Part shown: one piece after another, positions 1 to 13,985 of the stretch | Layout of the letters: the number at the start of each line of letters is the position of its first letter | Position numbering within the stretch: the first letter of the stretch is position 1 | Origin: Pseudonocardia acidicola | GTDB taxonomy: Bacteria > Actinomycetota > Actinomycetes > Mycobacteriales > Pseudonocardiaceae | Length of the DNA: 64,000 bases | Direction of reading: 5' to 3' | Assembly (NCBI RefSeq): GCF_012911935.1 | Contig: NZ_JAAXLA010000006.1 | Location: forward strand, 1-64,000 | Made by a program: the position numbers and the translations under genes | The notes under the pieces: generated by a model | The model's input: only the letters and a program-made list of their open reading frames with translations | What the model was told of the DNA's origin: nothing | Database searches by the model: none

Positions 1-32
1 AGGTCGGGGAGGTCGGGGAGGTCGGGGAGGTC
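1..32. repeat. 9-bp tandem repeat (AGGTCGGGG)
   Basis: Three full copies of a 9-bp unit and a fourth partial copy run from the window edge into the stop codon of the metallophosphoesterase gene (complement of bases 31-33). The array is cut by the window start, so its real copy number is unknown. It lies immediately 3' of the last gene of the exopolysaccharide operon. Confidence 0.8.
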
Positions 33-1338
33 ATGGCCCGGGTGCGGGGGCGACGGTCCCGGCGCAGGGCACCACGCCGGAGTCCTCGGTGACGCCGTCC
101 TCGGTGATGAAGCGGTAGGTCGCGCCGGTGGCCGACAGCTGCAGTTGCAGCGCCCCCCACGCCGAGGTGGCGTTGTCGAAGCCGACGGCCATCCGCGGGT
201 CCGGGACGAGCAGCGGGCTGAGCCACTGTCCGCCGGTGCCGACCACGAACTCGGTGGTCCCGCCGCCGACCACCGCGCCGTCGGCGTCCATCGGCTTCCA
301 CCGCTGGTAGTTGTGCGAGTGCCCGTTGAGCACCAGCGGCACGTGGTGCGACGCGATCAGCCGCCAGAACGCGTCGAAGTCGGTGGCCGCCTCGCTCGGC
401 CCCTCGGTCTCACTGCGCCCCTCGGTGAACCGCGGCCGGTGGTAGGTCACCAGCGTGCACGGGTCGGGGTGCCGCGCCAGGTCGGCGGCCAGCCACTGAT
501 ACTGCGCCGAGCTCGTGCTCAGGACCGTCGCCGGGCTGACGTTGTCGAGGGTGATGATGTGCCAGCCGTGGGTGTCGTAGCTGTAGTACGGCGGTGGGTC
601 GCCCCAGTAGTCGTAGTACGGTCGGCCGGTCCGGTCGCTCTCGAACTCGTGGTTGCCCGGCGTCGGGTTGGTGATCGACCGGAACCGGCTGTAGAAGCTG
701 CCGTTCTCGCCGTACCAGTTGGCGTACTCCTCGGGGGCGCCGTGCGCGTAGACGTCGCCGAGATAGAGCACGAGGTTGGGTTTCCACGACGCGATCAGGT
801 CCGTCACCCGGCGCTCCGCCGTCAAGCCCGAGACTCCGTCGCCGGCCGCGGCGACGAGCAGCGGACTGCCGGGGGCCGGGTCGGTGCCCGGCGTGGGCCG
901 GAACGGCGCCGTCGGCGGCGGGGCCGGGGTGGCGGTGAAGTCCAGCGGCAGGGTGAGCGGCGGCGAGGCGTACCCACCGCTGAAGGCCACCGAGGCCGAC
1001 AGCGTGTGCAGGCCGGGTGGGTAACGGTAGGTGTGCAGGTTGAACGCGTACGGCGACTGGGGGTCGAAGAGCAGGTAGCCGCCGTCGAGGGTGTAGGTGA
1101 TCCCGTTGACCGCCGGCGCGCGGCCGGTGAGCTGGGTGGTGGCCGTCACCGGCACCGGGCCGGCGACATCGGCGCCCGCCGCGGGCCCGGTGATGCACAG
1201 CTGCACCGTGTATCCGGCCGGGGCCGTGGCGGTGGTGCAGGTCGGCGCGCTCGGTGGCCGCCGGGTGGTGACGTCGACGACGACGACAACCACCAGCAGC
1301 AGCAGGCCGGCCAGCGCCGGGAGCGGACGCGGTCTCAC
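31..1338 (-). CDS. secreted/anchored metallophosphoesterase, last gene of the exopolysaccharide operon
   Basis: 435 residues. A hydrophobic N-terminal stretch (about residues 5-21, very Val/Leu-rich) should export or anchor the protein. It is followed by an Ig/Fn3-like beta region (about 45-145) and a calcineurin-like phosphoesterase domain. Metal-binding motifs appear in order: GDG near 165, LGDVY near 193, PGNHEF near 226, YHRPR near 298 and GHSHNYQRW near 337. The order and the GHSHNYQRW ending resemble purple-acid-phosphatase-like enzymes; the substrate is unknown. The GTG start overlaps the stop of the flippase gene by 4 bp (GTGA), which sets the start even though the frame stays open far upstream. 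Extracellular dephosphorylation of a polymer or substrate is an inference from location in the operon. Confidence 0.85.
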   Translation of the reverse strand: MRPRPLPALAGLLLLVVVVVVDVTTRRPPSAPTCTTATAPAGYTVQLCITGPAAGADVAGPVPVTATTQLTGRAPAVNGITYTLDGGYLLFDPQSPYAFNLHTYRYPPGLHTLSASVAFSGGYASPPLTLPLDFTATPAPPPTAPFRPTPGTDPAPGSPLLVAAAGDGVSGLTAERRVTDLIASWKPNLVLYLGDVYAHGAPEEYANWYGENGSFYSRFRSITNPTPGNHEFESDRTGRPYYDYWGDPPPYYSYDTHGWHIITLDNVSPATVLSTSSAQYQWLAADLARHPDPCTLVTYHRPRFTEGRSETEGPSEAATDFDAFWRLIASHHVPLVLNGHSHNYQRWKPMDADGAVVGGGTTEFVVGTGGQWLSPLLVPDPRMAVGFDNATSAWGALQLQLSATGATYRFITEDGVTEDSGVVPCAGTVAPAPGP

Positions 1339-2645
1339 CCCGTCCCTCCGGCGCCCCGCGGCGTGGCCCCGGCCCGCAACGGCCGGGCCAGGCGGCGGGT
1401 CAGCCCGACGAGCACGGCCGCCGTCACGAGGTAGGCGACACTGGAGGCGATCGCCGCACCCAGAGCGCCGTGCCGCGGGATGAGCACGACGTCCAGGGCG
1501 ACGGTCACGACCACTCCGGCGGCCATCCCGGCCGAGTTCGCACCGGGCCGTCCGACGCCCCACAGGTAGGCCGAGGCGACCGCGGCGGCCCCTTCGACGG
1601 CCAGCCCGACGAGCAGGACGCAGGCCGGTACGACCGCACCGCGGAAGGTCTCGCCGTAGAGCAACGGCAGCGTGAACGCCGCGGCCAGCGCCAGCAGCGG
1701 CGTCGCCGCCGCGGTCAGGGCGACCGCCCGCGGCATCAGCCGGCGCACCTCCGCGTCGGCCACCGCCCGGTCCGAACGGGCGAAGCGCGGGTAGAGCACG
1801 TAGTTGCAGGCAGTGGCGGGCAGCCGCATCAGCTCCGCGAACTTGGACGCCACCGCGTAGACGCCGAGCACGGCCGGCCCGGCGAGCGCGCCCAGGACGA
1901 GGAAGTCCAGCCGCAGGTTCACCAGCCACAGCAGGTTTCCCAGCTGGCCCCGGGCCCCGAAGACGATCACCCGCCGGGCGACGCCGGCCGAGGGTGCGCC
2001 CCAGCCGCGGAAGAAGCCGGTCACCGCGAGGCGGCCCACCGACACCGTGGCCGCCGCCACCCCGCCGCCGACGAGGCCGCCCAGGACCGCCGCGATGCCG
2101 TCCAGCCCGACGGCCAGCGCGACGCCGTAGGCCGGCAGGAACATCAGCTCCTCGGTGACGATGATCAGATTGGAGCCGCGCATGTCCGCGGTGCCCTGAC
2201 AGCACGCCTTGCCCCACACCGTGACCAGCTGGGTGGCCACCGTGACGCCGGCGAGCAGCAGCTGCCCGCGCGACGTCGCGGGAAAGAAGAAGTCCAGGGC
2301 GGGCGCGGCGAGCGTCCAGGCCAGCACGCCCAGCACCGAGCCGCCCATCGCGAGCGCGGTCAGCGTGGGCCGCAGCCGCGGGTCGGCGCCGCGCTCGCCG
2401 GCGACGTAGTAGGTCGACGCCACCGGCAGCCCGGCACTGATCACCACCCCGGTCAGCCAGGGCAGCACGCGCAGCAGCGCGTACTCCCCCAGCACGGCGG
2501 CCCCGCCCCAGCGGGCCACGAGCAGGCTCGCGACCGACAGGGCGGCCAGCGCCCCACCCTGGGCGACGAGGTTGGCGGTCGCGCTGCGCCGGCCCAGCCC
2601 GGGCGCCGGGCGGGACCCGGTGGCGGTGGCCTGCGGGCGGCTCAC
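1335..2645 (-). CDS. polysaccharide flippase (Wzx/MOP-type)
   Basis: 436 residues, almost entirely hydrophobic, with roughly twelve membrane segments separated by short Arg-rich loops. This is the layout of MOP-superfamily polysaccharide exporters (Wzx/MurJ-like), which flip undecaprenyl- or decaprenyl-linked repeat units across the membrane. Near the N-terminus a stretch beginning SATANLVAQGG is typical of these proteins. The GTG start overlaps the upstream polymerase stop by 4 bp. Neighbouring Wzy-like and Wzz-like genes support a Wzx/Wzy-dependent pathway. Family assignment rests on topology and context rather than a catalytic motif. Confidence 0.82.
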   Translation of the reverse strand: MSRPQATATGSRPAPGLGRRSATANLVAQGGALAALSVASLLVARWGGAAVLGEYALLRVLPWLTGVVISAGLPVASTYYVAGERGADPRLRPTLTALAMGGSVLGVLAWTLAAPALDFFFPATSRGQLLLAGVTVATQLVTVWGKACCQGTADMRGSNLIIVTEELMFLPAYGVALAVGLDGIAAVLGGLVGGGVAAATVSVGRLAVTGFFRGWGAPSAGVARRVIVFGARGQLGNLLWLVNLRLDFLVLGALAGPAVLGVYAVASKFAELMRLPATACNYVLYPRFARSDRAVADAEVRRLMPRAVALTAAATPLLALAAAFTLPLLYGETFRGAVVPACVLLVGLAVEGAAAVASAYLWGVGRPGANSAGMAAGVVVTVALDVVLIPRHGALGAAIASSVAYLVTAAVLVGLTRRLARPLRAGATPRGAGGTG

Positions 2646-4003
2646 GACGTCTCCCGCGACGGCACCGACGGGGTGCCCAACGGTCGCACCGGCATCGGCC
2701 AGCGGGCCGCGACCGCGGCGACGAACGCCAGCAACAGCCAGACGTACCGGAAGTGCAGCACCTCGTAGTAGGTGCCGGCCAGGGCCATCGCGGCCAGCGC
2801 CGCGATCAGACCTGAGGGCCGGGGCAGCTCCGCCCAGCCGCGCGGCGGCCCGCGCAGCACCCGGGCGGACCGGAGCACCGCCGTGGCGACGAGCACGACG
2901 ATCCCGACCACGCCGAGGGGGCCCCGCTCGACGAGAGCGGCCAGGTAGTCGTCGTGCGCCTCCTTGGCGTAGGCGTACTGCCGGTCCGACAGCAGTTCCT
3001 TGGTGGTCCCCGGTCCGGAACCGAGCACCCCGTCGCTCGCATAGAGCTGCAGCGACTCGTGGATCAGCTCGCTGCGCTGGGCGCTGCTGCTGTCGCTGCG
3101 GCCGAGCGAGTTCACCAGGATCGGCTGCCCGGAGTCACGCGCCCAGGTCTGGATCTGGGTGAACGGCACGACCGTGAGCCCGGCGCCCACCACGGAGCCC
3201 AGGATCAGCAGCACCGCCAGGGTGGTCATCGCGCCGAAGCGGCGGTGGGTGGCGACCAGCACCACCACCGCGCAGCCGGCGAGCAGCTCCAGCACACCAC
3301 CGTTGGATTCGCTGAGCACCAGCGACCAGACCAGCACCAGGTAGCCCAGCCACCGCAGCCACACCCGCCGTGGCCGCTGGGTCGCGTAGACGATGAAGAT
3401 CGACGACACCCAGAACGTGGCGGCGTAGTTCGGGTCGCCGAAGGTGAACAGCGCCCGGTTGCCCTCCCGGGCCACGATGCCCTCGACGGCGGTGAGCCCG
3501 AACAGCGACGCGGTGACCAGTACCGTCCCCCAGCAGACCGACAGCACCGCCCAGGTCGAGGAGAGCAGCCGCAGGACGCCGGGCCTGCGAGCCAGGTTCG
3601 TCATCGCGGTGGCCCAGGAGAAGATCACGAGGTCCTGGAAGACGGACAGCAGCGAGTTGGCCGGAAGTGGGCCGGCCAACCCGGCGATGGCCCCACCCAG
3701 CACCATCAGCGCCATCGCGCACGCATAGGGCGCTCGCAGCCGGATCGAGGCGCCCGCCGCCCAGATCCCGGTCGCCAGGATGGTCAGCAGGATGGCCACG
3801 TCGACCGGAGAGCTGTTGCCCGGCCCGGTCGGGTGCAGGAACGGTTGCAGTGCCACCGACAGCACGCCGAGCACCACCGCGGCGCGCTCGGCGGTGCGCC
3901 GCGGTGGCAACCGGAGTGGATCGGCCGGCTCCGGGCCGGTGCGGAGGTCCGGGGATCCGGCGGTCGCCGGGATCACCGGGCGCCGATCGTCGAGCTCGGT
4001 CAT
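2642..4003 (-). CDS. O-antigen ligase/polymerase family protein (Wzy/WaaL-like)
   Basis: 453 residues with about ten to twelve membrane segments and one large extracellular loop (about residues 265-340). The loop contains SSAQRSELIHESLQLY and GSGPGT, followed by a HDDYLAALVERGPLG segment. That loop pattern (R...E.....G.GPG.......HN/D) is characteristic of the Wzy_C/O-antigen ligase family, which joins polysaccharide repeat units on the outer face of the membrane. The ATG at 4003 overlaps the upstream kinase stop (ATGA). A longer open frame exists upstream but is only the shadow of the neighbouring gene. The first about 45 residues are charged and cytoplasmic. Polymerase and ligase cannot be distinguished by sequence alone. 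Confidence 0.85.
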   Translation of the reverse strand: MTELDDRRPVIPATAGSPDLRTGPEPADPLRLPPRRTAERAAVVLGVLSVALQPFLHPTGPGNSSPVDVAILLTILATGIWAAGASIRLRAPYACAMALMVLGGAIAGLAGPLPANSLLSVFQDLVIFSWATAMTNLARRPGVLRLLSSTWAVLSVCWGTVLVTASLFGLTAVEGIVAREGNRALFTFGDPNYAATFWVSSIFIVYATQRPRRVWLRWLGYLVLVWSLVLSESNGGVLELLAGCAVVVLVATHRRFGAMTTLAVLLILGSVVGAGLTVVPFTQIQTWARDSGQPILVNSLGRSDSSSAQRSELIHESLQLYASDGVLGSGPGTTKELLSDRQYAYAKEAHDDYLAALVERGPLGVVGIVVLVATAVLRSARVLRGPPRGWAELPRPSGLIAALAAMALAGTYYEVLHFRYVWLLLAFVAAVAARWPMPVRPLGTPSVPSRETS

Positions 4004-5262
4004 GGCGTCGTCTCGCTCAGGGTCATGAACAGCGTCAGCTGGTCGCGGGCGAAGTCCGGGTCGGTGGCCTCGGCGGCGAGCGCGGCGATCTCGGCCAGCA
4101 CGGCGTCGCGCCCGCACGCGGCAGGCAGCCCGAGCCGGGTGAGGCCTGCGGTGAGGAAGCCGCGGACCAGGTCGGGGTACCAGCCGGTGCCGTCGATCCC
4201 GTAGCCGGCGCCGGCACCGGGCCGGCCCGCGACCAGGCGGGGATGGCCGGGCACCGGACGGCCCGGGCGGGTGTGCCGGTCGAGATAGATGGAGTAGGCC
4301 AGGGCGAACCGGGCGATGTCGCGCACCGGGTTGCCGGCGAGCTCGCTGTGCTCCCAGTCGACCACCCCGGTGATCTCGCCACGGTCGGTCAGCAGGTTGC
4401 CGGGCCAGAAGTCGCCGTGCACCAGGGTGGTCGGCGCCGCGTACCGGCCCAGCCGGGCGCGCAGCGCGCCCAGCCGGTCGAGCACGCGGTCGGCGGCCGG
4501 CGCAGCGGTGAGCCGGGCGCGCAGCCGCTCGGCCGTCCCGGGGGCGAGGTCCAGCGGCGCCGCCGGGCCCAGGGTCGCCGACTGGGCCAGCAGCAGCCAG
4601 CGGCTGGCCGCGGCCAGGTCGGCGCGCACCGCCTCCGGGTCCGCCGTGTGGCCCCGGCGGTGGTAGCGGACCAGCATCGGCACGCCCCGCTGCGCCGTCG
4701 TGACGAGCGCGGGGCGGCCGCCGTGGTCGAGCACGTCGAGCACCTGGGGCACGCTGCCGGCGAGGTGGCGGCTGTGCACCCGCTGCAGGGCCAGCAGCCG
4801 CTGTGCCTCGCGGTCGATGCGCGCCGCCGCCCGCACGTCACCGGCGATCTTGACGGCGTGGCTGGGCGACGGTTCGTTCGGGGTGAACAGCAGCAGCACG
4901 CACCGGGCGTCGGGGTCGCGGCTGTGCTGGAGCACCACGAGCCGCTTGTCGCCGTCCGCGACGAAACCGGCCAACGCACCCGCCGGTTCCGCGCCCCCGG
5001 GGCCGCGCGACGCCGGGCGCGGCAGCAGCCGCCACAGCGGCCGGATCCGCAGGGCCTGCCTGGCCGCGGCGTAGACCCAGCTCGGCAGCCCCGACCGCGG
5101 CGGCGCCGCGAGCAGCGAGGTGCGCACGTAACTCAGCACCGGGCGCTCGAACTCGGCCACGACCACCGGACGGTGCCGCGACGGCAGCGCGACGAAGCGG
5201 CGCCCGGGCGGCAGCAGTTCCTGCCACGGCGCCCGCACCGCCTCGTCCGCCGCCGCGCTCAC
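4000..5262 (-). CDS. aminoglycoside-phosphotransferase-fold kinase
   Basis: 420 residues. The C-terminal half carries the APH/choline-kinase active site: LVHGDFWPGNLL (catalytic Asp and Asn) near residue 279 and ITGVVDWEHSELAGNP (metal-binding Asp) near 295. An upstream region with VKIAGD supplies a candidate nucleotide-binding Lys. The N-terminal about 110 residues are family-specific and have no recognisable motif. The GTG start gives a 4-bp overlap with the RtcB-like gene. Antibiotic resistance is unlikely in this setting; phosphorylation of a sugar or lipid-linked intermediate is an inference from operon position. Confidence 0.82.
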   Translation of the reverse strand: MSAAADEAVRAPWQELLPPGRRFVALPSRHRPVVVAEFERPVLSYVRTSLLAAPPRSGLPSWVYAAARQALRIRPLWRLLPRPASRGPGGAEPAGALAGFVADGDKRLVVLQHSRDPDARCVLLLFTPNEPSPSHAVKIAGDVRAAARIDREAQRLLALQRVHSRHLAGSVPQVLDVLDHGGRPALVTTAQRGVPMLVRYHRRGHTADPEAVRADLAAASRWLLLAQSATLGPAAPLDLAPGTAERLRARLTAAPAADRVLDRLGALRARLGRYAAPTTLVHGDFWPGNLLTDRGEITGVVDWEHSELAGNPVRDIARFALAYSIYLDRHTRPGRPVPGHPRLVAGRPGAGAGYGIDGTGWYPDLVRGFLTAGLTRLGLPAACGRDAVLAEIAALAAEATDPDFARDQLTLFMTLSETTP

Positions 5263-6698
5263 GACAGCACCGCGAAGGGACGCATCCGGGCCACCGGCCG
5301 CACCAGCCCGTTGCGGACCAGGATGTCGAGGCCCTCGCCCACGCCGAGGTCGTCGAGGTGCGCGACCTCGCGCGGCGCGGCGTCGCTGTAGGAGTAGCAA
5401 GCCGTGTGCCGGCCCAGCGGGTCCGGCCCGGACCGGCCGTCGCGGACGAACGCGCTGATGATGCTTCCGGTCCCGTGGCAGGCCGTGTAGAGGCTGCGCC
5501 GGGCGTCGGCGGCGGGCACGCACAGGAACGACGACGTCCGGTTCGTGCCAGGCAGCAGCAGCGGCTGGCCCGTCTCCGCGAACGCCGGGTGTCCGGCCAT
5601 CATCTCCGGGGTCCAGGCGCGCGCGGCGTTGTGCCGGTGCACGTACGCCGGCGCGCCGTCGATGTCCTCCTCGTAGATCGAGTTGTGCGGGGAGTCGACG
5701 ACGAGGTCCATCCGCGCACCGAACGCCTCCCGCGCGAAGGAGCGCAGCGCCGCGTAGGTGGCCAGCCGGTAGGCGAACCCGTAGTTCATCGACAGCCGCT
5801 GGGCCAGCAGCACGCGGCGGCCGTCGTCGCCGTCGACCGGCAGCGACGGGCAGCCCGCGGTGAAGTACAGCTCGAAGCGCCGCCGGGCGCGGGCGAGGCT
5901 GCGCGCCCCGAGCAGGTGGGTCAGCGGCTTCTGCGCGGCCATCTCCGCGCGCAGCATCCGGGACGCGGACTTGCGGCGGGCGTACATCTCGCCGATCTGC
6001 CCGGTCAGTACGCCGCCCCCGTTGTGGAATTGCACGGTGACCTGGCCCTGGTGCACCCCGAGCCGCTCGGCGGCCGCCGGGTCGAGGATCTCCTCGACCT
6101 GCTGCAGTTCGAGGAAGTGCGTGCTCGGGCCGATCGTGCCGAAGCGCAGCCGGGCCAGCTGCACGCACAGCCACGGCAGTTCCTTGCGGGCGCGCTCGGC
6201 CCCGCCGAACTCCTCGACCGGGATCCGGCCGAACTCCTCGACGCGGTCGAGCTCGCCGCGTTCGATGCCGTAGCGGTCGGCGGCGAAGTCCGCGCCCTCG
6301 ACGGCGGCGCGCAGCACCTCGTCGCGGGTGAGCTCGAACTTCCAGCCCGGCGGGCTGGGAAACCGCTCACGCACCCGCCGGTAGAAGTCGCCGACGGCCC
6401 GCTCGCTCGGCTTCGGCACGTCCAGGGTGGCCAGCGCCATCCCGCAGTTGAGGGCGGCGTCGGTGAGCGTGGGCCGGATGGCACCACGGGTGGCGACCGC
6501 GATGCTCGAGGGCATCTCGGACTTGGCCTTGTGGCAGAAGTCGGGTAGCACGACGGGCGGCGCCGCCAGGTCCGCGGTGGCGGTGCCGTCGTGCAGCCGG
6601 GCGAGCAGCGTGGGGTCGGCGGGCGAGAGCACGCTGTCGAAGACGGTCGGGCCGTCCTCCCGCTCGGTCTGCTCGCTGCTGATCATGTCTACGCGCAC
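5259..6698 (-). CDS. divergent RtcB-family (RNA-ligase-like) protein in exopolysaccharide operon
   Basis: 479 residues that follow the RtcB pattern from end to end. VLPDF near 49 matches the family's (V/M)PDVH segment. NCGMA near 83 matches DIGCGM, GTIGPSTHFLEL near 188 matches GTxGxGNHFIE, and QFHNGGG near 223 matches LHSGSRG. SPHN near 338 matches HHN, PGTNRTSSF matches PGSMG, and ACHGTGS near 407 matches the guanylated-His motif SHGAGR. All candidate metal/GMP His residues and the Cys are kept. The Asp of DxxC is replaced by Ala, the Asn of GNH by Thr, and the Arg after HGAG by Ser. RtcB proteins ligate RNA 3'-phosphate ends with GTP and Mn2+. The role in a polysaccharide locus is unknown and a moonlighting or altered activity is possible. 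The GTG at 6698 is chosen because AGGAG lies about 5 nt upstream; ATG 6686 is an alternative. Confidence 0.78.
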   Translation of the reverse strand: MRVDMISSEQTEREDGPTVFDSVLSPADPTLLARLHDGTATADLAAPPVVLPDFCHKAKSEMPSSIAVATRGAIRPTLTDAALNCGMALATLDVPKPSERAVGDFYRRVRERFPSPPGWKFELTRDEVLRAAVEGADFAADRYGIERGELDRVEEFGRIPVEEFGGAERARKELPWLCVQLARLRFGTIGPSTHFLELQQVEEILDPAAAERLGVHQGQVTVQFHNGGGVLTGQIGEMYARRKSASRMLRAEMAAQKPLTHLLGARSLARARRRFELYFTAGCPSLPVDGDDGRRVLLAQRLSMNYGFAYRLATYAALRSFAREAFGARMDLVVDSPHNSIYEEDIDGAPAYVHRHNAARAWTPEMMAGHPAFAETGQPLLLPGTNRTSSFLCVPAADARRSLYTACHGTGSIISAFVRDGRSGPDPLGRHTACYSYSDAAPREVAHLDDLGVGEGLDILVRNGLVRPVARMRPFAVLS

Positions 6699-7861
6699 GG
6701 GGTCTCCTGGTCGGTTCGGGAAGGGGCACAGCGGGGTGGGGCGTAGGCGGCGACGAGCGCATCGCCGAGCCTCTGGTCGCCGAAGCGGTCGCCCAGCCAG
6801 TCGCGGGCCGCCGCCGCCATCCGGTCGGCCTCGTCGGGGTGGTCGAGCAGATGACCCACCGCGGTGGCCATCAGGTCCGGCCGCTGCGGCGGCACGAGCA
6901 GCCCGGTGCGGCCGGGGACGACCACGTCGGGCACCGCGTTCACCGCGGTCGCCACCACGGGGACGCCGCAGGTCATCGCCTCGACGATCGCCACGGGAAG
7001 GCCCTCGTAGCGGCTGGGCAGCGCGAAGACGTCGAACGCGGGCAGCACCTCGCGCACGTCGGGACGCTCACCGAGGAGCACGACACGGGCCTGCGGCAGC
7101 GCCCGGGCGGCCGCCGCCCGCACCTGTTCGGCGAGCGGGCCGCCGCCGATCCACACCCCGACCGTGCCAGGGCGGTGCAGCGCGACCATCGCGGCGACGA
7201 AGTCCTCCGGGGCCTTCTGGTAGGCGAGCCTGCCGACGGCGCCGACGACGGTCGCGTCGACCGGCAGCCCCAGGGCGTGCCGGGCCGCGGCCCGGGTGCG
7301 CGGCGTGCGCGGGGTCGCCGCGCCGCCCGTCGCGACGCCGATCGTGCGGACCCGTTCCGGCGCGACCAGCCGGCGGCGCACGACCTCGACCGCCACGCCG
7401 GTGCCGACACAGAGCGCGACGTCGGTGATCCGGCCGAGCCGGCGTTCGATCCCGATGTAGGTCCCGCGCCGGGACGCGGACTGGAACTCGTGATAGGGCA
7501 GCCCGTGGAAGGTGTGCACGATCCGGCCGGCCCCGGCGCGGTGGGCGGCGAGCCGGCCGAGCGTGCCGGCCTTGGCGCTGTGGGTGTGCACCACGTCGTA
7601 GCGCCGGGCGCCGAGCAGCCGGGTCAATCGGCGCAGCGCCCGGATGTCGTCGCGCGGGGCGATCGGCGAGCGCAGCGACGGTTCCAGCACGACCTCGAGC
7701 CCGGCGGCCGCGGCCTCGTCGAGCAGCCGGTTCCCGCTGCCGGCGATCACGGTGACCGGGTAGCGGTCGGGGTCGAGCGCGAGCGCGCCGCGCAGCGCCA
7801 CCTCCCCGGCGCCCGCTTCGAACCGGGTGACGACGGTCGCCACCCGCACCCGCGGGCTCAC
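6689..7861 (-). CDS. glycosyltransferase, GT4-like
   Basis: 390 residues with two Rossmann halves (GT-B fold). The N-terminal half has VVHTHSAKAGTLG and VHTFHGLPYHEF. The C-terminal half has VGRLAYQKAPEDF, then FALPSRYEGLPVAIVEAM (the EX7E-type donor site with both Glu), then GVPVVATAVNAVPD. These are standard for retaining GT4 enzymes that add a sugar from a nucleotide donor to a lipid-linked acceptor at the inner membrane face. The GTG start overlaps the upstream gene by 4 bp. The 3' end overlaps the RtcB-like gene by 10 bp. Confidence 0.9.
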   Translation of the reverse strand: MSPRVRVATVVTRFEAGAGEVALRGALALDPDRYPVTVIAGSGNRLLDEAAAAGLEVVLEPSLRSPIAPRDDIRALRRLTRLLGARRYDVVHTHSAKAGTLGRLAAHRAGAGRIVHTFHGLPYHEFQSASRRGTYIGIERRLGRITDVALCVGTGVAVEVVRRRLVAPERVRTIGVATGGAATPRTPRTRAAARHALGLPVDATVVGAVGRLAYQKAPEDFVAAMVALHRPGTVGVWIGGGPLAEQVRAAAARALPQARVVLLGERPDVREVLPAFDVFALPSRYEGLPVAIVEAMTCGVPVVATAVNAVPDVVVPGRTGLLVPPQRPDLMATAVGHLLDHPDEADRMAAAARDWLGDRFGDQRLGDALVAAYAPPRCAPSRTDQETPCA

Positions 7862-8847
7862 GACCGCGCCCCGGTGGCGGTGGGCCGCCCGGTGAGCAGG
7901 CCGGCCAGGTCCGGCGTCGGCCGGCCGGCCAGGGTGATCTCGGTGGCCGGCAGCCGCGCGGCCAGCGCCCGGGCCACGTCCGCGACCGGCGGGTGCACGG
8001 GGCCCATCCCGGTGCCCATCGCCAGCGTCGCGGCCAGCGCCCAGTAGCGGCGCAGCTCACCGGCCATGTAGGTGCCCCCGGTGAGCACCGCGGCGGCGCG
8101 GCCGGGGTCGAGCCCCGCCACGGTCGGCCGGGGGCCGCCGCCGCGGCGGAGCACGACGATCCGGTCCGGGGCGAGCTCGTCGACCCGCCCGGGCAGCGGG
8201 CGCTCCCGGCGCCCGTGGGCCATCCGGCGCCCGGCACCGCCCTCGACGCGCATCGGCTCCACCAGGCCGTGCACCCGCTCCACGTCGCCGGCGACGAGGT
8301 TGTCCGAGCAGGCCCGGCCACCCGCTTGCGCAGCGGCCAGCAGCACGGTCGACCGGCCCACCCCGCCCGGCCCGGCCAGCAGCGGCACACCCCCGTCGAT
8401 GGCCACAGCGGCGGCGTGCAACGGCACCCGGCCGCGCCGGCCCGCCTGCCACAGCGCCGGGTACTGCACGAGCACCGCCCGGGCCAGCAGGTGGAACCGC
8501 GCGCGCAGCAGCAGCGCGGCGAGCCGTTCGCGGCGCGGCGGTCGCCACCGGGCCACCACCTGCAGAGCCCCGGAGTGCAGGGCGTCCACGTGCAGGTCGA
8601 ACCCGGCGCCGCAGGCGTTCTGCACGACGCACCGGTTGCCCCGGCGGTACGCACCCCGGGTCAGCGGCTCCCAGCCCCGCACGTCGAAGCCCGCGGAATG
8701 CGGCTCGACCAGCACCTCGACGTCGGCCGGGCGGCCCGACGGCGCCCGCCATGCGTCGCCGGCTGCCTCGGCGAGCACCTCGTCGAGCCAGCGCGGCTGC
8801 GCGTGCACGACCAGCCGTTCCCCGGCCTGGATCAGCTCGCCGTCCAT
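7858..8847 (-). CDS. HPr-kinase-like protein with degenerate P-loop
   Basis: 329 residues. The centre contains LHAAAVAIDGGVPLLAGPGGVGRST (quoted in two parts: LHAAAVAIDGG, then AGPGGVGRST), near residues 143-168. This is the arrangement of HprK/P-type kinases, where a His-containing strand precedes a Walker A loop. The invariant Lys of GxxGxGKS/T is Arg here. SDNLVAGD a little downstream may supply the acidic metal site. Such HprK-like proteins occur in actinobacterial polysaccharide and peptide clusters, usually with unknown substrates. The start is ATG 8847, which overlaps the upstream stop (ATGA). Activity cannot be assumed because of the Lys-to-Arg change. Confidence 0.68.
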   Translation of the reverse strand: MDGELIQAGERLVVHAQPRWLDEVLAEAAGDAWRAPSGRPADVEVLVEPHSAGFDVRGWEPLTRGAYRRGNRCVVQNACGAGFDLHVDALHSGALQVVARWRPPRRERLAALLLRARFHLLARAVLVQYPALWQAGRRGRVPLHAAAVAIDGGVPLLAGPGGVGRSTVLLAAAQAGGRACSDNLVAGDVERVHGLVEPMRVEGGAGRRMAHGRRERPLPGRVDELAPDRIVVLRRGGGPRPTVAGLDPGRAAAVLTGGTYMAGELRRYWALAATLAMGTGMGPVHPPVADVARALAARLPATEITLAGRPTPDLAGLLTGRPTATGARS

Positions 8848-10340
8848 CAGAAGCCGTCCGGGTAGGGCGCGTCGAACAGGCCGCTCGCGGCCGGGACCGC
8901 CAGCGCGGGCGGGGTGTACTCCGGCACCACCCGGGTCAGCCGGGCGCGCACCTCCTGCGCGGCGTTGGCCTCGGCCGCGGCGTACAGCGCGTGCAGACCG
9001 TCCTCGAAGTCGTCGGGCAGCGCCGGCCCCAGCGTCGCCGAGATCCGCGGGTGCGCGGTCGGGGTCCGGTCCTCGGAGTCGCTGAACAGCGCCTCGTTGA
9101 GCTTCTCGCCCGGCCGCAGCCCGGTGAACCGGATGTCGACGTCGGTGGCGCCGACCTGCGCGGCGTAGGACTCGACGAGGGAGACGATCCGTACCGGCTG
9201 GCCCATGTCGAGCACGAAGGTCTCGCCGTCCTCGGCCATCGCCCCGGCCTCGAGCACCAGCCCGACCGCCTCTTCGACGGTCATGAAGAACCGGTCCACG
9301 TCCGGGTCGGTGATCGTGACGGGTTCGTGCGCGGCGATCTGGTGGGCGAGTACGTGCAGGAACGAGCCACGGCTGCCCAGCACGTTGCCGAACCGCACCG
9401 ACCCGACCGCGGTGCGGCCACCGGCCCGGCTGGCCACGATCAGCTCGGCCAGCCGCTTCGTGGCGCCGAGCACCGAGGTCGGGGCGGCGGCCTTGTCGGT
9501 GGAGATGAGGATGAAACGCTCGGTGCCGTGCTCCACCGCCGCGTCCACCAGGTGCTGGGTGCCCAGCACGTTGGACTTGACGCCCTCGCAGGGATGGCGC
9601 TCCAGCAGCGGCAGGTGCTTGTGCGCCGCGGCGTGGAACACGACCTGCGGGCGCAGCTCGGCGAAGATCTGCCGCATCCGGGAGCGGTCCCGGATATCGG
9701 CGACGAGCAGTTCGTCGGTGTCGAGCAGCGCCGCGCCGCTGATCTCCAACTGCAGGCTGTGCAGGTTCGACTCGTCGTGGTCGAGCATGTAGAGCGCGCT
9801 GGGCCCGTAGGAGCGGATCTGCCGGCACAGCTCGCTGCCGATCGACCCGCCCGCCCCGGTCACCAGCACCCGCCGATCGCGGACCGTGGCCCGGGTCGTC
9901 GGCCGTACGACGTGCACCTCGTCGCGGCCCAGCAGCGCCGCCGGCGCCACCGCCATCAGGTCACCGCCGCGGCTGTCCCGCTGCACGGCGGCGTGGAACG
10001 ACGGCAGGTAGCGCACCCGGGCCCCGGACCGGACGGCCTCGCGGACCAGGGCCGCCAGTTCCACCGGCGGCATCGACGGGATCGCCACCACGACGACGTC
10101 GATCCGCTCGGCACGCACGGTGTCGGCCAGCGCGGAGAGCGGACCGAGCACCGGCAGCCGGTTGACCCGCCGCTTGCGCGCGTCGTCGTCCAGGTGCCCG
10201 AGGAGGGTGAGGCCGTACTCGGGGTTGCGCATCAGGTCGCGGGCCAGGGTGCGACCGGCCGCGCCCGCGCCGACGATGAGCGTGCGGGTTCCGGTCGGCG
10301 GCGGTGGGGTGCGGCGGAGGCGCAGGCGCAGACGCTGCAT
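8847..10340 (-). CDS. CapD/PglF-type nucleotide-sugar 4,6-dehydratase (soluble form)
   Basis: 497 residues. The first Rossmann domain begins TLIVGAGAAGRTLARDL (about residues 20-36). A second, NAD(P)-binding SDR domain begins VLVTGAGGSIGSELCRQI near 148. The later segment STDKAAAPTSVLGATKRLAE is the UDP-GlcNAc 4,6-dehydratase hallmark, with the usual catalytic Tyr position occupied by Leu (Met in PglF/FlaA1). The four N-terminal membrane helices of full-length WbpM/PglF are absent. The product would be a 4-keto-6-deoxy sugar nucleotide, the expected substrate for the DegT aminotransferase encoded next. The ATG overlaps the aminotransferase stop. Confidence 0.9.
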   Translation of the reverse strand: MQRLRLRLRRTPPPPTGTRTLIVGAGAAGRTLARDLMRNPEYGLTLLGHLDDDARKRRVNRLPVLGPLSALADTVRAERIDVVVVAIPSMPPVELAALVREAVRSGARVRYLPSFHAAVQRDSRGGDLMAVAPAALLGRDEVHVVRPTTRATVRDRRVLVTGAGGSIGSELCRQIRSYGPSALYMLDHDESNLHSLQLEISGAALLDTDELLVADIRDRSRMRQIFAELRPQVVFHAAAHKHLPLLERHPCEGVKSNVLGTQHLVDAAVEHGTERFILISTDKAAAPTSVLGATKRLAELIVASRAGGRTAVGSVRFGNVLGSRGSFLHVLAHQIAAHEPVTITDPDVDRFFMTVEEAVGLVLEAGAMAEDGETFVLDMGQPVRIVSLVESYAAQVGATDVDIRFTGLRPGEKLNEALFSDSEDRTPTAHPRISATLGPALPDDFEDGLHALYAAAEANAAQEVRARLTRVVPEYTPPALAVPAASGLFDAPYPDGF

Positions 10341-11509
10341 CAGGGGGACCCTCCTCGGCGGCCCAGATCGGTGATCAGGGCACAGACGTGGTCGACATCG
10401 GCGTCGGCCAGGGCGGGGTGCAACGGCAGCGACAGCAGGCCGTCGAAGACCTGGTCCGCCACCGGCAGGTGCGGGGCGCCGAGCAGGGCTCGGAAGTACG
10501 GGAAGTGGTGCACCGGGATGAAGTGCACGGAGGTCCCGACACCGCGTTCGGCGAGCGCCGCGGCGAGCGCGTCGCGGGTGAGCCGATAGCCGGGGCCGAC
10601 GCGGAGCACGTAGAGGTGCCAGGCGTGCCGCCCGGTCACCGGCCGCGGTGGCGGCGTCAGACCCGGGACGTCGCGCAGCGCGGCGTCGTAGCGGTCGGCG
10701 AGCTCGGCCCGCCGGGCCTGCCAGCCCTCCAGCCGGGTCAGCTGCGCGCTGCCGATCGCGGCCTGCAGGTCGGTGAAGTTGGCCTTCATCCCGTCGACCT
10801 CGACGGAGTACCGCCAGCCGCTACCGGGGTGGTAGCGCCGCCAGGCGTCACGGCTCATCCCGTGCTGACGGCTCTGCCGCAGCAGGTCGGCCAGTTCGGG
10901 GTCGGCGGTGGTCACCGCGCCGCCCTCGCCGATCGGCAGGTTCTTGGTGGCGTAGAAGCTGAAGCAGGTCGCGCCGGGTGCGCTGCCCACCGGATCCGGT
11001 CCGGCCGCCGCGCCCAGCCCGTGCGCGGCGTCCTCCACGACGTGCGCGGGATCCAGCCCGGCGGCCGCGGCCAGCTCGGCGACCGGCGCCGGGTAGCCGG
11101 CCATGTGCTGCACCACCATGGCCCGGGCACCGGACCGCTCGGCGGCGCTCGCGACGTCGCGGGGGCGCAGGGTCAGCGTCGCCTCGTCCACGTCGACCAG
11201 GACCGGCCGCAGGCCGGCGTGCACGATCGCGTGCACCGCACCGCAGAACGTCAGCGTCGGGCTGAGCACCGGCGAGCCGGCCGGCAGCCGCAGCGCGCGC
11301 AGCGACAGCTCGATGGCCGCGGTGCACGAGCTCACGGCGACGGCGTGTTCGGCGCCGACCCAGCGGGCCAGCTGGTGTTCGAACTGCGCGGTACGCGGGC
11401 CGGTGGTGACCCAGCCGCTCTCCAGGACGGCCAGCGCCGCGGCCCGGGCCTCGGGGATGATCTCACAGGTGGCGAACGGGACCGCACGGCCGATGTCGGC
11501 GGTGGTCAT
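10340..11509 (-). CDS. DegT/DnrJ/EryC1/StrS-family sugar aminotransferase
   Basis: 389 residues of PLP fold type I. GWVTTGPRTAQFE near the N-terminus, HAVAVSSCTAAIELSLRAL for cofactor phosphate binding, VVEDAAHGLGA and SFYATKNLPIGEGGAV with the Schiff-base Lys are all present. Such enzymes transaminate 4-keto (or 3-keto) sugar nucleotides, which fits the adjacent dehydratase: the pair would make an amino-dideoxy sugar for the polymer. ATG 11509 is preferred to a GTG 9 bp upstream because it reproduces the 4-bp ATGA overlap used throughout the operon. Confidence 0.92.
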   Translation of the reverse strand: MTTADIGRAVPFATCEIIPEARAAALAVLESGWVTTGPRTAQFEHQLARWVGAEHAVAVSSCTAAIELSLRALRLPAGSPVLSPTLTFCGAVHAIVHAGLRPVLVDVDEATLTLRPRDVASAAERSGARAMVVQHMAGYPAPVAELAAAAGLDPAHVVEDAAHGLGAAAGPDPVGSAPGATCFSFYATKNLPIGEGGAVTTADPELADLLRQSRQHGMSRDAWRRYHPGSGWRYSVEVDGMKANFTDLQAAIGSAQLTRLEGWQARRAELADRYDAALRDVPGLTPPPRPVTGRHAWHLYVLRVGPGYRLTRDALAAALAERGVGTSVHFIPVHHFPYFRALLGAPHLPVADQVFDGLLSLPLHPALADADVDHVCALITDLGRRGGSP

Positions 11510-12522
11510 CGTGTCCACCGCCGGCTCGTCCCGGGCCCGGAGAGGGCCTGCCGGTAGATCTCCAGCAGCCCGCGGGCCAGCGCGTGCGCGGCCGGCCGGT
11601 CGTCGGCGGTGGGCACGACCCGGCGTGGCGGGCGTGCCTCGTCCAGGTGCGCCGCGACCGCGTCGGCGATCGCGTCGTCGCGCGGGGCGACGACGTTGCC
11701 GTTGAGCCCGGAGGTCACCAGCTCGGCCGCGCTGTCGGTCGTCACCGCCACCACCGGCAGCCCCATGGCCAGCGCGGAGACGCCGGGGCTGACCGCGGAC
11801 AGGTCCTGCCCGGCGGCGACGAACAGGTCGGCGGCCTCGAGCAGCGCGGGCAGCGGCAGCCGGCCCGCGGGATGCGCCGGCGCCCGGCCGGCCTCACCGC
11901 TGAGTCGCAGCACGTGCACGTCGCTACGACCCAGCCGCTCGACGGCCGCGGCCCAGTCTCCGAGCATCGCGGTGCGACGCGCCGGGACCACGCCGACGAC
12001 CAGCCGGACCCCGGGGCGGATCCCGAGCTCGCGGCGTACCGCGCCACGCTCCGCGGCCCCGCCGTCCCGGCTCCCGGCTCCGGGCGCGTGCCAGGGGGAC
12101 AGCACCGGCAGGCACCGCACCCGCTCCCCCGGGGCCAGCGCCGCCTCCACGACGATCCGGCCCGCGGTGCGCCCGTGGGTGAGCCAGACGGCGCAGCGGG
12201 CGGCGCGCCGGCGCTCGCGGCGCGCCCAGCGGCGCGTCGCGACCAGCTCGTGGCCGCGCAACGGGATCCGGTCGACGGTGTGCACCCGGTACGCGGCGAG
12301 CCCGGCGTCGCCGTCGACCTCGCCGACGGTGTGCAGCAGATCCGCCCGCTCGCCCGGCCGGGCCAGCCGCAGCCGGCCCGCACCCAGCAGCAGCTCGACC
12401 GCCTCGCGCAGCGCCGCGGCCAGCGGCCCGGCACCGGGTGCGGCCTGCAGCCGCAGGCTGGGCACCGTGTCCGGCACCGGCGAGACCACCGCCGGCGGGC
12501 CGGCCGGGTGGATCGCGGTCAT
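11506..12522 (-). CDS. glycosyltransferase, GT4-like (divergent)
   Basis: 338 residues. The C-terminal half has the GT-B donor-site pattern: LPALLEAADLFVAAG, then SPGVSALAMGLPVVAVTTDSAAELV with a Glu in the expected place. The N-terminal half is weakly conserved and contains VWLTHGRTAGRIV. The start is ATG 12522, preceded by AGGAGGAG 3 bp away and overlapping the Wzz stop (ATGA). A longer frame reaches 12549 but lacks support. It is a likely second sugar transferase for the repeat unit; the sugar is unknown. Confidence 0.8.
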   Translation of the reverse strand: MTAIHPAGPPAVVSPVPDTVPSLRLQAAPGAGPLAAALREAVELLLGAGRLRLARPGERADLLHTVGEVDGDAGLAAYRVHTVDRIPLRGHELVATRRWARRERRRAARCAVWLTHGRTAGRIVVEAALAPGERVRCLPVLSPWHAPGAGSRDGGAAERGAVRRELGIRPGVRLVVGVVPARRTAMLGDWAAAVERLGRSDVHVLRLSGEAGRAPAHPAGRLPLPALLEAADLFVAAGQDLSAVSPGVSALAMGLPVVAVTTDSAAELVTSGLNGNVVAPRDDAIADAVAAHLDEARPPRRVVPTADDRPAAHALARGLLEIYRQALSGPGTSRRWTR

Positions 12523-13889
12523 GAGCTCCTCCTGAGAAGACGCCGCCACGACCGGGGCCGCCGGGCGGCCCCGGGATCACCGAGGACGCCGATGACCGGC
12601 AAGCCGGTCGCCGCGGCCAGGTCGTCGAGGCGCTGCAGCGCGGTGTGCCGGGCGAGCACCGGCACCACCGGCAGCAGTCCACAGTGGTCGGTCGAGCGGA
12701 GGGTGTCGCACGTCGTCAGGGCCTGCACGTCGAGCCGGTCGAAGGTGCGGCCGCGGGTGACCTCCCAGGGCGCCTCGAGCACGGCGGTTCGGACGTCCGT
12801 CCGGGCCGGGCCCGCCTCGTGCAGACCGTTGGTCCCGGCAGGCCGGGGCGCCGGCGACGGCGGGGGTGTCATGCCCGGCCCGCCGGCCGGCGGGTCCGCC
12901 TCGTTCAGCGCCGCCCGCAGCGCGGCCGCGATCGCCGCCAGCCGCTGCGGGTCGCCCGGCCCGACGAGCAGCGCGCGCCGGACCTCGTGCCGCTGGGCCG
13001 CCCGGCGCAGGGCGAACAGCAGTTCGGGGTCGGCGGCACGGCCCTGATCGGTCCGCGGCAGCTGCCCGATCAGCGGGACACCGATACCCCGCGCGAACGC
13101 CCGGGCGTCGGGCACCCGCGGCCGCAGCACCTCGACCACGGTTGCGGCCAGCAGCCCGGCGACGAGCCCGATCACCAGGGCCAGTCCGAGGTCGGTGGCG
13201 AGGTTCGTCGGAGTGGCGCCGGTGCTGACCGCCGGGGAGATGACGGCGGCCGAGCCTGCCGAGCCTGCGGACGTCCCGCTCAGCTGCAACTGGCGCATCG
13301 TCGAGCTCAGGTCGTTGAGCTGCTGGTCGATACCGGCGAGCTGCGCCGCGGTGTCGGCGCTGGCCACCGGGTCCTTGGTGAGGGCCAGCGCCGTGGCCGT
13401 CTTCTGCCGCTGGTCCTGCAGTTGCTTCTGGCGGTCGCTGAGACCGCTGAGAAGATTGGCCGTGCGGGCATCGCCGGCGTTGTTGAGGTAGCTGACCACA
13501 TCCGTCGCCAGTGCCTGATCCAGCTTGGTGGCCACGGCCGGATCACGGTCGGTCACCGACACGTCGAACACCGCGGAGCTGCCCAGCCGGACGACGTCGA
13601 TCCGAGTGGCCGTGGTCGTCGGGTCCCGCCCGGTGACGCCGGCCTCGCCCAGCGCCCGCTGCACCATGGCGTTGCTGGTGGCCACCCCCTTGACCAGGTT
13701 CAGCAGCGCGTCGGCCTCGGTGTCCGAACCCGCCAGCACGGTGCCCCCCTGGATGCGCGACCACGAGGCGTACGTCCGGGGCGTGACAGCGGCCAGCAGC
13801 CCCAGCACGAGAGGGGGCAGCAGCAGGCAGACGAGCAGGAGTCGCCAGTGTCCGCGGAACACGCGCAGGAGAATCTCGTTGACGTCCAT
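12519..13889 (-). CDS. Wzz-type chain-length/capsular regulator with degenerate tyrosine-kinase-like domain
   Basis: 456 residues, first gene of the operon. TM1 (about residues 18-38) and TM2 (about 225-250) flank a periplasmic region with a Gln/Lys-rich coiled-coil stretch (LSDRQKQLQDQRQK). This is the Wzz/YveK co-polymerase layout. The cytoplasmic C-terminus resembles the BY-kinase domain usually fused or paired with Wzz. Its Walker A is missing, however: the corresponding LLVGPGDPQRLAAIAAAL has no GKS/T, and no Tyr cluster ends the protein. It is probably a regulatory co-polymerase without kinase activity. ATG 13889 has a GGATGGA stretch just upstream. Confidence 0.82.
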   Translation of the reverse strand: MDVNEILLRVFRGHWRLLLVCLLLPPLVLGLLAAVTPRTYASWSRIQGGTVLAGSDTEADALLNLVKGVATSNAMVQRALGEAGVTGRDPTTTATRIDVVRLGSSAVFDVSVTDRDPAVATKLDQALATDVVSYLNNAGDARTANLLSGLSDRQKQLQDQRQKTATALALTKDPVASADTAAQLAGIDQQLNDLSSTMRQLQLSGTSAGSAGSAAVISPAVSTGATPTNLATDLGLALVIGLVAGLLAATVVEVLRPRVPDARAFARGIGVPLIGQLPRTDQGRAADPELLFALRRAAQRHEVRRALLVGPGDPQRLAAIAAALRAALNEADPPAGGPGMTPPPSPAPRPAGTNGLHEAGPARTDVRTAVLEAPWEVTRGRTFDRLDVQALTTCDTLRSTDHCGLLPVVPVLARHTALQRLDDLAAATGLPVIGVLGDPGAARRPRSWRRLLRRSS

Positions 13890-13985
13890 TAGTCCATCCG
13901 TGTGAGACCGAGAGTTGTGCCGTGACGTTGCGTCGACGCTAGGGACGCCATCTGACCGAAGGCTCACACCGATGGATGAGACTTC

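Follow-up and report, generated by a model that had tools for sequence, protein, structure and literature searches.

The closest described systems for the protein studied here are the RtcB RNA ligases, and all RtcB activities known to us, from the parts of the literature consulted, act on nucleic-acid ends. Titles and abstract openings searched outside the subscription journals contained no role of RtcB in polysaccharide synthesis. Maughan and Shuman reportedly described, in 2015, Myxococcus RtcB paralogues, including 5′-phosphate capping by RtcB3; going by the title of that work, RtcB3 can be taken as a precedent for activity of an RtcB paralogue on a phosphate that is not an RNA 3′ end.

According to the consulted excerpts of structural studies, metal A of RtcB (Cys, His, His) binds the alpha-phosphate of the nucleotide and metal B (Asp, Cys, His) the gamma-phosphate (PMC10630183, PMC10944509), while Glu, Ser and the C-terminal Lys touch the guanine and an Asn touches the phosphate (PMC8668186). 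In human RTCB, exchange of the metal-B Asp (D119A) is described as leaving weak guanylylation and no ligation, and K375 as binding the leaving phosphate (PMC10944509). A more distant system is found among lasso peptides, where, in the excerpt available, HPr-kinase homologues phosphorylate the peptide and, in another cluster, a kinase is paired with a nucleotidyltransferase (PMC8498205).

Compared to the RtcB RNA ligases of P. horikoshii (4dwq) and human (RTCB, 8odp), the protein described here has a similar predicted fold (Z 33.1-36.7), the Cys/His/His ligands of metal A, the second His of site B, the His nucleophile and the Glu and Ser guanine contacts. It differs from them in the metal-B Asp, the Lys after VHR, the Arg after HGxG, the C-terminal Lys and the GSRG loop (here GGG), all of which are replaced in 21/21 subfamily sequences, and in its polysaccharide-cluster setting, whereas the host's canonical paralogue lies with archease elsewhere in the genome. 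Similarity to RtcB2-PrfH and the NCBIfam "RNA ligase RtcB family" (NF007153, TIGR03073) is recognisable, at scores (64 and 41.5 bits) far under the curated cut-offs of 407 and 271.8; the protein also stays below the cut-off of NF038162, and none of the eleven operon genes was recognised as PrfH.

An RtcB homologue in a polysaccharide operon

The gene was identified at positions 5259-6698 of the window (the whole analysed stretch of 64,000 nucleotides) as a minus-strand open reading frame with a GTG start encoding 479 amino acids; the plus-strand reading of the same interval is interrupted by an in-frame stop. An earlier note on this DNA had proposed a profile search, which matched PF01139 over residues 49-415 (E 1.2e-39) with 137.2 bits against a Pfam gathering score of 27. 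Among solved structures, P. horikoshii RtcB was a phmmer match at 4.4e-29. The protein is a genuine RtcB homologue. A chance reading frame or a decaying gene was ruled out by the PF01139 match together with dN/dS values of 0.08-0.21 in four pairs.

The gene belongs to eleven successive minus-strand genes, in agreement with the polysaccharide operon described earlier:

12519-13967, minus strand: Wzz/chain-length-type protein, a tentative name (TIGR03007 16.1 bits, far under the cut-off; no Pfam match)
11506-12549, minus strand: second glycosyltransferase-like protein (weakly similar by tblastn to GT4 genes in other loci)
10340-11518, minus strand: DegT-family aminotransferase (PF01041, 2.4e-98)
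8847-10340, minus strand: UDP-sugar 4,6-dehydratase family protein (Polysacc_synt_2; PF02719, 1.5e-96)
7858-8847, minus strand: HprK-like P-loop protein (PEPCK/HprK predicted fold; no Pfam match; searched as 7858-8850)
6689-7861, minus strand: GT4 glycosyltransferase (PF00534, 1.5e-31; 10-bp overlap with the start of the RtcB-like gene)
5259-6698, minus strand: RtcB-fold protein of 479 aa, polysaccharide-locus subfamily (PF01139; C85/H225/H338, H194, H408)
4000-5262, minus strand: APH-family kinase, 420 aa (PF01636, 3.1e-17, searched as 4002-5262; 4-bp overlap with the end of the RtcB-like gene)
2642-4003, minus strand: Wzy/O-antigen-ligase-type membrane protein (PF04932, 3.1e-11; searched as 2642-4006)
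1335-2645, minus strand: Wzx-type flippase (named from translation and position)
31-1338, minus strand: metallophosphoesterase with an Ig-like domain (PF00149, 7.8e-12; PF17957, 4.7e-7)

Among the genes from 31 to 8847, six of the joints overlap, by 4-10 bp. As the first base of the window is also the first base of the contig, the 3′ end of the operon lies outside the view. The RtcB-like gene is flanked by the GT4 glycosyltransferase and APH genes; the earlier note had placed it next to both the APH-type kinase and the HprK-like protein, which is right for the former, while the latter lies one gene further away. The APH motif residues HGD, N and DWE were invariant across 12 sequences.

An AlphaFold2 model of the RtcB-like protein, computed with 21 relatives as input, reached a pLDDT of 82.5 and a pTM of 0.84. 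All 16 Foldseek matches at E ≤ 0.001 were RtcB chains (lowest E 2.6e-27); one of them, 2epg, bears the title TTHA1785 only, and the same chain was returned by the phmmer search. With a second structure aligner, ten RtcB entries gave the Z scores of 33.1-36.7 quoted above over 379-395 residues, and no non-RtcB family was found above Z 8, the next entry having Z 5.2. The structure prediction suggested in the earlier note therefore speaks for the RtcB fold, and the equivalence of the His/Cys site with that of RtcB is proposed from the alignment. Two loops of the model (183-193 and 240-250), near the site residues in sequence, have a pLDDT below 50.

A rare and sharply distinct subfamily

A search of 200 genomes of the family gave matches in 18 of them at E 1e-10, of which only those in the host and two other genomes (77% identical) belong to the subfamily; the remaining ones scored at most 77 bits. 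Scanning a genome collection for short peptide patterns of the window protein, an approach that finds close relatives only, gave ten loci with 71-84% identity from Geodermatophilaceae, Amycolatopsis, Streptomyces (3), Streptacidiphilus (2), a Streptosporangiaceae MAG and Actinobacteria MAGs (2). Using a subfamily profile and scoring the best 4 or 5 candidates per genome, we detected members in 8/397 genomes of the order and 4/396 of the phylum, with the host counted in each. The orders and classes around two divergent genomes held no further member (1/3 and 2/5 genomes, all already known); these profile-sensitivity searches were made within the Actinobacteria phylum. A plasmid search returned only canonical-looking relatives with less than 30% identity (10 records).

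The resulting set (A3) comprises 21 sequences that are 46-84% identical to the window protein; L054 and L027 come from one genome and were counted as a single locus, and two loci were merged with larger versions. In a tree with 12 of 32 canonical sequences, the 21 stood apart with a branch support of 100/100 and a branch length of 5.25 changes per column, for which the program issued a long-branch warning. The subfamily is thus sharply distinct within RtcB, rare and well defined.

The host genome contains three other PF01139 matches, with 537 bits (contig C55), 365 bits (contig C159) and a fragment with 34 bits (contig C104), compared to 136 bits for the window gene in the same search, and an archease gene adjoins the 537-bit gene. 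The window gene is a specialised paralogue alongside an ordinary host RtcB set. All four sampled genomes with a subfamily member hold another RtcB match, in G582 as fragments only.

Conserved and replaced active-site residues

The 21 subfamily sequences were compared with 32 canonical RtcBs (two from the host and the 30 best-scoring loci of the genome sample), a set that leans to typical members and in which L002 aligns poorly (17.6 bits). Ten tabulated site residues are invariant in 21/21 subfamily sequences: the metal-A ligands C85, H225 and H338, the second His of site B (H194), the equivalent of the nucleotidylated His (H408), the guanine-contact residues E197 and S390, and D53, N84 and E61. 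The His/Cys metal and GMP-His residues were therefore rightly described before as kept (C85, H194, H225, H338 and H408).

Four residues found in 32/32 canonical RtcBs are replaced throughout the subfamily, namely the metal-B Asp of DxxC (Ala 16, Ser 5; A82 in the window protein), the Lys after VHR (His 19, Tyr 2; H356), the Arg after HGxG (Ser 16, Thr 5; S412) and the C-terminal Lys (Thr 11, Ser 5, Asn 4, Arg 1; S479). The Ser of the GSRG loop, likewise present in 32/32 canonical sequences, is Gly in 21/21. The metal ligand set D, C, H, H, H is thus incomplete, with C, H, H, H kept in 21/21 and the Asp absent, and so is the GMP-pocket set of the RNA ligases (Glu, Ser, Lys and alpha-phosphate Asn), in which Lys occurs in 0/21 and Asn in 7/21 sequences. 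By our own mapping, the Lys after VHR corresponds to human K375.

The losses of Asp (A82), Asn (T193) and Arg (S412) named in the earlier note hold for the window protein; H356 and S479 are two further replacements that it had missed. The change in GNH is no hallmark of the subfamily, with Thr in 14/21 and Asn in 7/21 sequences. According to the alignment, the seven that keep Asn are the same seven with His where the other 14 carry residue C55, and since both changes share one 7/14 split, they arose after the other replacements.

E61 and R387 are present in 21/21 subfamily sequences and absent at those columns from the canonical set, and H56 and H356 are near-invariant (19/21 each). That E61 could have taken over from the metal-B Asp was considered as a candidate idea.

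Loci of the relatives and conservation of the cluster

The neighbourhoods of all 21 loci, including the window, were surveyed by tblastn of the operon proteins, by profiles and, for L052, by Pfam. Polysaccharide genes lie beside the RtcB-like gene in 21/21 loci, each with at least two cluster genes, so that the question raised in the earlier note, whether the subfamily always sits in polysaccharide loci, is answered positively for this set. The APH gene is present in 20/21 loci (missing in L052, a 7.7 kb contig), the Wzx-type gene in 20/21 (missing in L035) and the HprK-like gene in 18/21; the exceptions for the latter are the short contigs L035, L056 and L057 of 5.6, 9.6 and 14.2 kb. Besides LuxR-type genes, L052 contains a flippase and an HprK-like gene only. 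Other genes near the relatives encode PIG-L deacetylases, a sugar transferase, a formyltransferase, an asparagine-synthase and a FemAB-like protein. An inositol chemistry deduced from the PIG-L deacetylase genes near L028, L029, L049 and L056 was considered too thin to use.

Across the 14 of 21 loci sharing seven common genes, the RtcB-like protein has the highest mean pairwise identity (0.71), compared to 0.52-0.63 for Wzx, Wzy, APH, GT4, the HprK-like protein and the dehydratase; cluster genes present in fewer loci reach up to 0.67. Its dN/dS in four pairs was 0.19, 0.08, 0.21 and 0.16. Only in the fourth pair did no other cluster gene have a lower value, and in the third pair it exceeded the three other genes compared. 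The gene is maintained under purifying selection, and dN/dS does not set it apart.

The HprK-like neighbour

The model of the HprK-like protein matched PEPCK (Foldseek E 4.9e-7) and HprK (3.6e-5), with low TM-scores of 0.24-0.45 by query length, consistent with a predicted fold of the HPr kinase/PEPCK superfamily. Its Walker A motif (GPGGVGRST) has Arg in place of the Lys, as do 11/18 members including that of the window, with Lys in the other 7/18; because of this exchange, even its kinase activity is putative.

The HprK-like gene was searched by profile in the order and the phylum, scoring the best 4 or 5 candidates per genome. In the order it was found in 8/397 genomes, which are identical to the eight with the RtcB-like gene (chance of drawing the same 8/397 genomes, 7e-17); the profile used (A4) derives from 11/18 loci with the gene, all of which also contain the RtcB-like gene, and favours that kind. 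Since the cluster is passed on as a whole and A4 rests on such loci, we read this as one module: the co-occurrence shows one inherited cluster and is not proof of a direct partnership. The phylum sample gave 4/396 genomes for the RtcB-like and 2/392 for the HprK-like gene. Both additional RtcB-like genomes are incomplete (82% and 62% complete) with loci at contig ends, and perhaps not both are within the 392. The pairing of the two genes offers a concrete place to seek an undescribed step of polymer assembly that depends on phosphate.

Possible function in polymer assembly

The protein is very probably no RNA ligase. RNA ligation had been called unexpected in the earlier note, and the residue pattern and the polysaccharide loci agree with this: an RNA ligase working in situ was rejected on the replacement of the four canonical residues in 21/21.

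Tentatively, and as a possibility more than a probability, the reading that we prefer is a cytoplasmic nucleotidyl-His transferase of the polymer pathway acting on a phosphorylated sugar intermediate. A cluster kinase (HprK-like, perhaps APH) would phosphorylate a sugar hydroxyl or other small acceptor, the RtcB-like protein would bind a guanosine nucleotide at metal A, and an NMP-His408 would form, from which the nucleotidyl group would be moved onto, or in the other direction taken off, the acceptor phosphate. The outcome might be an activated NDP-type donor for a glycosyltransferase, or the reverse. In this putative scheme, the first two half-reactions of RtcB would proceed without RNA joining.

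GMP transfer by RtcB calls for those parts that are kept (metal A, the His nucleophile and the larger share of the guanosine pocket), while the lost residues would serve the triphosphate leaving group and, as we infer, RNA. Because the grip on the gamma-phosphate has been lost, a diphosphate nucleotide (e.g. a GDP-sugar) is a more likely ligand than GTP; with the metal-B Asp and, by our own mapping, the Lys of the leaving phosphate replaced in 21/21, GTP itself may therefore not be the donor. The nucleotidyl-His reading is supported by the invariance of metal A, H194, H408, E197, S390 and D53, by the uniform loss of the metal-B Asp, VHR Lys, HGxG Arg and C-terminal Lys, and by the polysaccharide genes in 21/21 loci with the HprK-like gene in the same 8/397 genomes. 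The top mean identity among genes of the 14 loci and the dN/dS of 0.08-0.21 point in the same direction. As for precedents, the RtcB paralogue with reported 5′-phosphate capping provides one. In its excerpt, the lasso peptide work provides another, where a small-molecule or peptide kinase stands beside a nucleotidyl-type enzyme, but the nucleotidyltransferase family and the product differ, so that this is an analogy only (PMC8498205).

Several points weigh against the nucleotidyl-His reading. The human RTCB mutant lacking the metal-B Asp is described, in the excerpt, as guanylylating weakly without ligation (PMC10944509). The alpha-phosphate Asn is Thr in 14/21 sequences including the window protein, and guanine specificity is not assured because the guanine-contacting Lys is gone in 21/21 (one has Arg). 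Furthermore, low-pLDDT loops lie near site residues in the sequence, the HprK-like co-occurrence reflects shared cluster inheritance, and in three of four pairs another cluster gene has a lower dN/dS than the RtcB-like gene.

A doubtful though conceivable alternative is a nucleotide-independent metal phosphotransferase or phosphoesterase, in which a one-metal Cys/His site would have a sugar-phosphate, cyclic phosphate or lipid-linked phosphate as its direct substrate and H408 would serve as phosphoryl carrier or general acid. This would fit the retention of the metal-A ligands and H408 alongside the loss of the triphosphate-gripping residues and the base-contacting Lys, as well as the gained residues (E61 and R387 in 21/21, H56 and H356 in 19/21). 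However, E197 and S390, two of the three guanine contacts, are invariant in 21/21 and would be needless without a nucleotide.

It is unlikely that the polysaccharide machinery uses the protein without catalysis, as a scaffold or sensor with an RtcB fold that perhaps binds nucleotide or metal: residues essential in studied RtcBs are lost, as such a role would allow, but ten site residues are invariant in 21/21 and the protein is the most conserved among the genes common to 14 loci. We regard as quite unlikely a GTP-dependent glycan phosphodiester ligase, close to the idea of the earlier note, that would perform the full three-step RtcB reaction with a sugar-phosphate and the hydroxyl of a sugar or lipid instead of RNA ends; the His nucleophile is retained together with metal A and the larger share of the guanosine pocket, and the cluster kinases could supply the phosphate, whereas the metal-B Asp and the leaving-phosphate Lys (of human RTCB, by our own mapping) are replaced in 21/21. 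That an RNA ligase or an enzyme capping RNA ends sits in the operon by happenstance is highly improbable, since the RtcB fold and His nucleophile that this would explain are set against polysaccharide genes in 21/21 loci, the replacement of four residues of 32/32 canonical RtcBs, a second RtcB match in all four sampled subfamily genomes (G582 fragments only) and the end of ligation described, in the excerpt, for the equivalent Asp mutant of human RTCB (PMC10944509).

Returning to the nucleotidyl-His reading, these data suggest that an RNA-ligase fold has been reused to help build a polysaccharide in actinobacteria. In its fullest form, which we put forward as a tentative and by no means probable proposal, a nucleotidyl-His transferase activating or linking an HprK-like-phosphorylated sugar would belong to a polysaccharide pathway found here and there among actinobacteria. 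To our knowledge, the fold is unrelated to those of known sugar nucleotidyltransferases. If true, the proposal would show how an RNA-repair enzyme can move into carbohydrate chemistry, in a subfamily with the GMP-His and the alpha-phosphate metal retained, the triphosphate- and RNA-related residues lost, and the gene inherited with a polysaccharide cluster. What is new is the genomic role of an RtcB subfamily in one actinobacterial polysaccharide cluster. Pfam annotation would name the genes of this subfamily "RNA ligase RtcB", which calls for caution among annotators.

Variation among genes neighbouring the RtcB-like gene

In the HprK-like protein (window 7858-8847, minus strand), the Walker A lysine is replaced by arginine at 11 of 18 loci, and it is retained in the divergent loci. 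The APH protein of the window is extended at its N-terminus by some 110 residues, and this extra segment may be the counterpart of separate ORFs that adjoin the APH gene in divergent loci (L057:11848-12540, L056:6432-7169 and L050:10266-10898) and have no Pfam match. Lipoprotein-like secreted proteins, likewise without a Pfam match, are encoded next to the RtcB-like gene in two divergent loci (L052:4330-5454 and L055:11086-12126); their likeness to each other was judged by eye. Directly upstream of the operon lies a LuxR-type response regulator gene (window 13986 to ~14770), and several relatives have similar genes upstream of their operon.

Other RtcB-related genes

The host genome (G000) also encodes a canonical long RtcB adjoining a divergent archease gene (contig C55, 19553-21633), a second, shorter RtcB (C159, 18613-19719) and an RtcB fragment on C104. 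A further group of open frames, 366-413 amino acids long and including G646:C106:17532-18194 and G583:C2:31028-31660, matches PF01139 weakly, at 24-37 bits, and perhaps represents another distant RtcB-like family.
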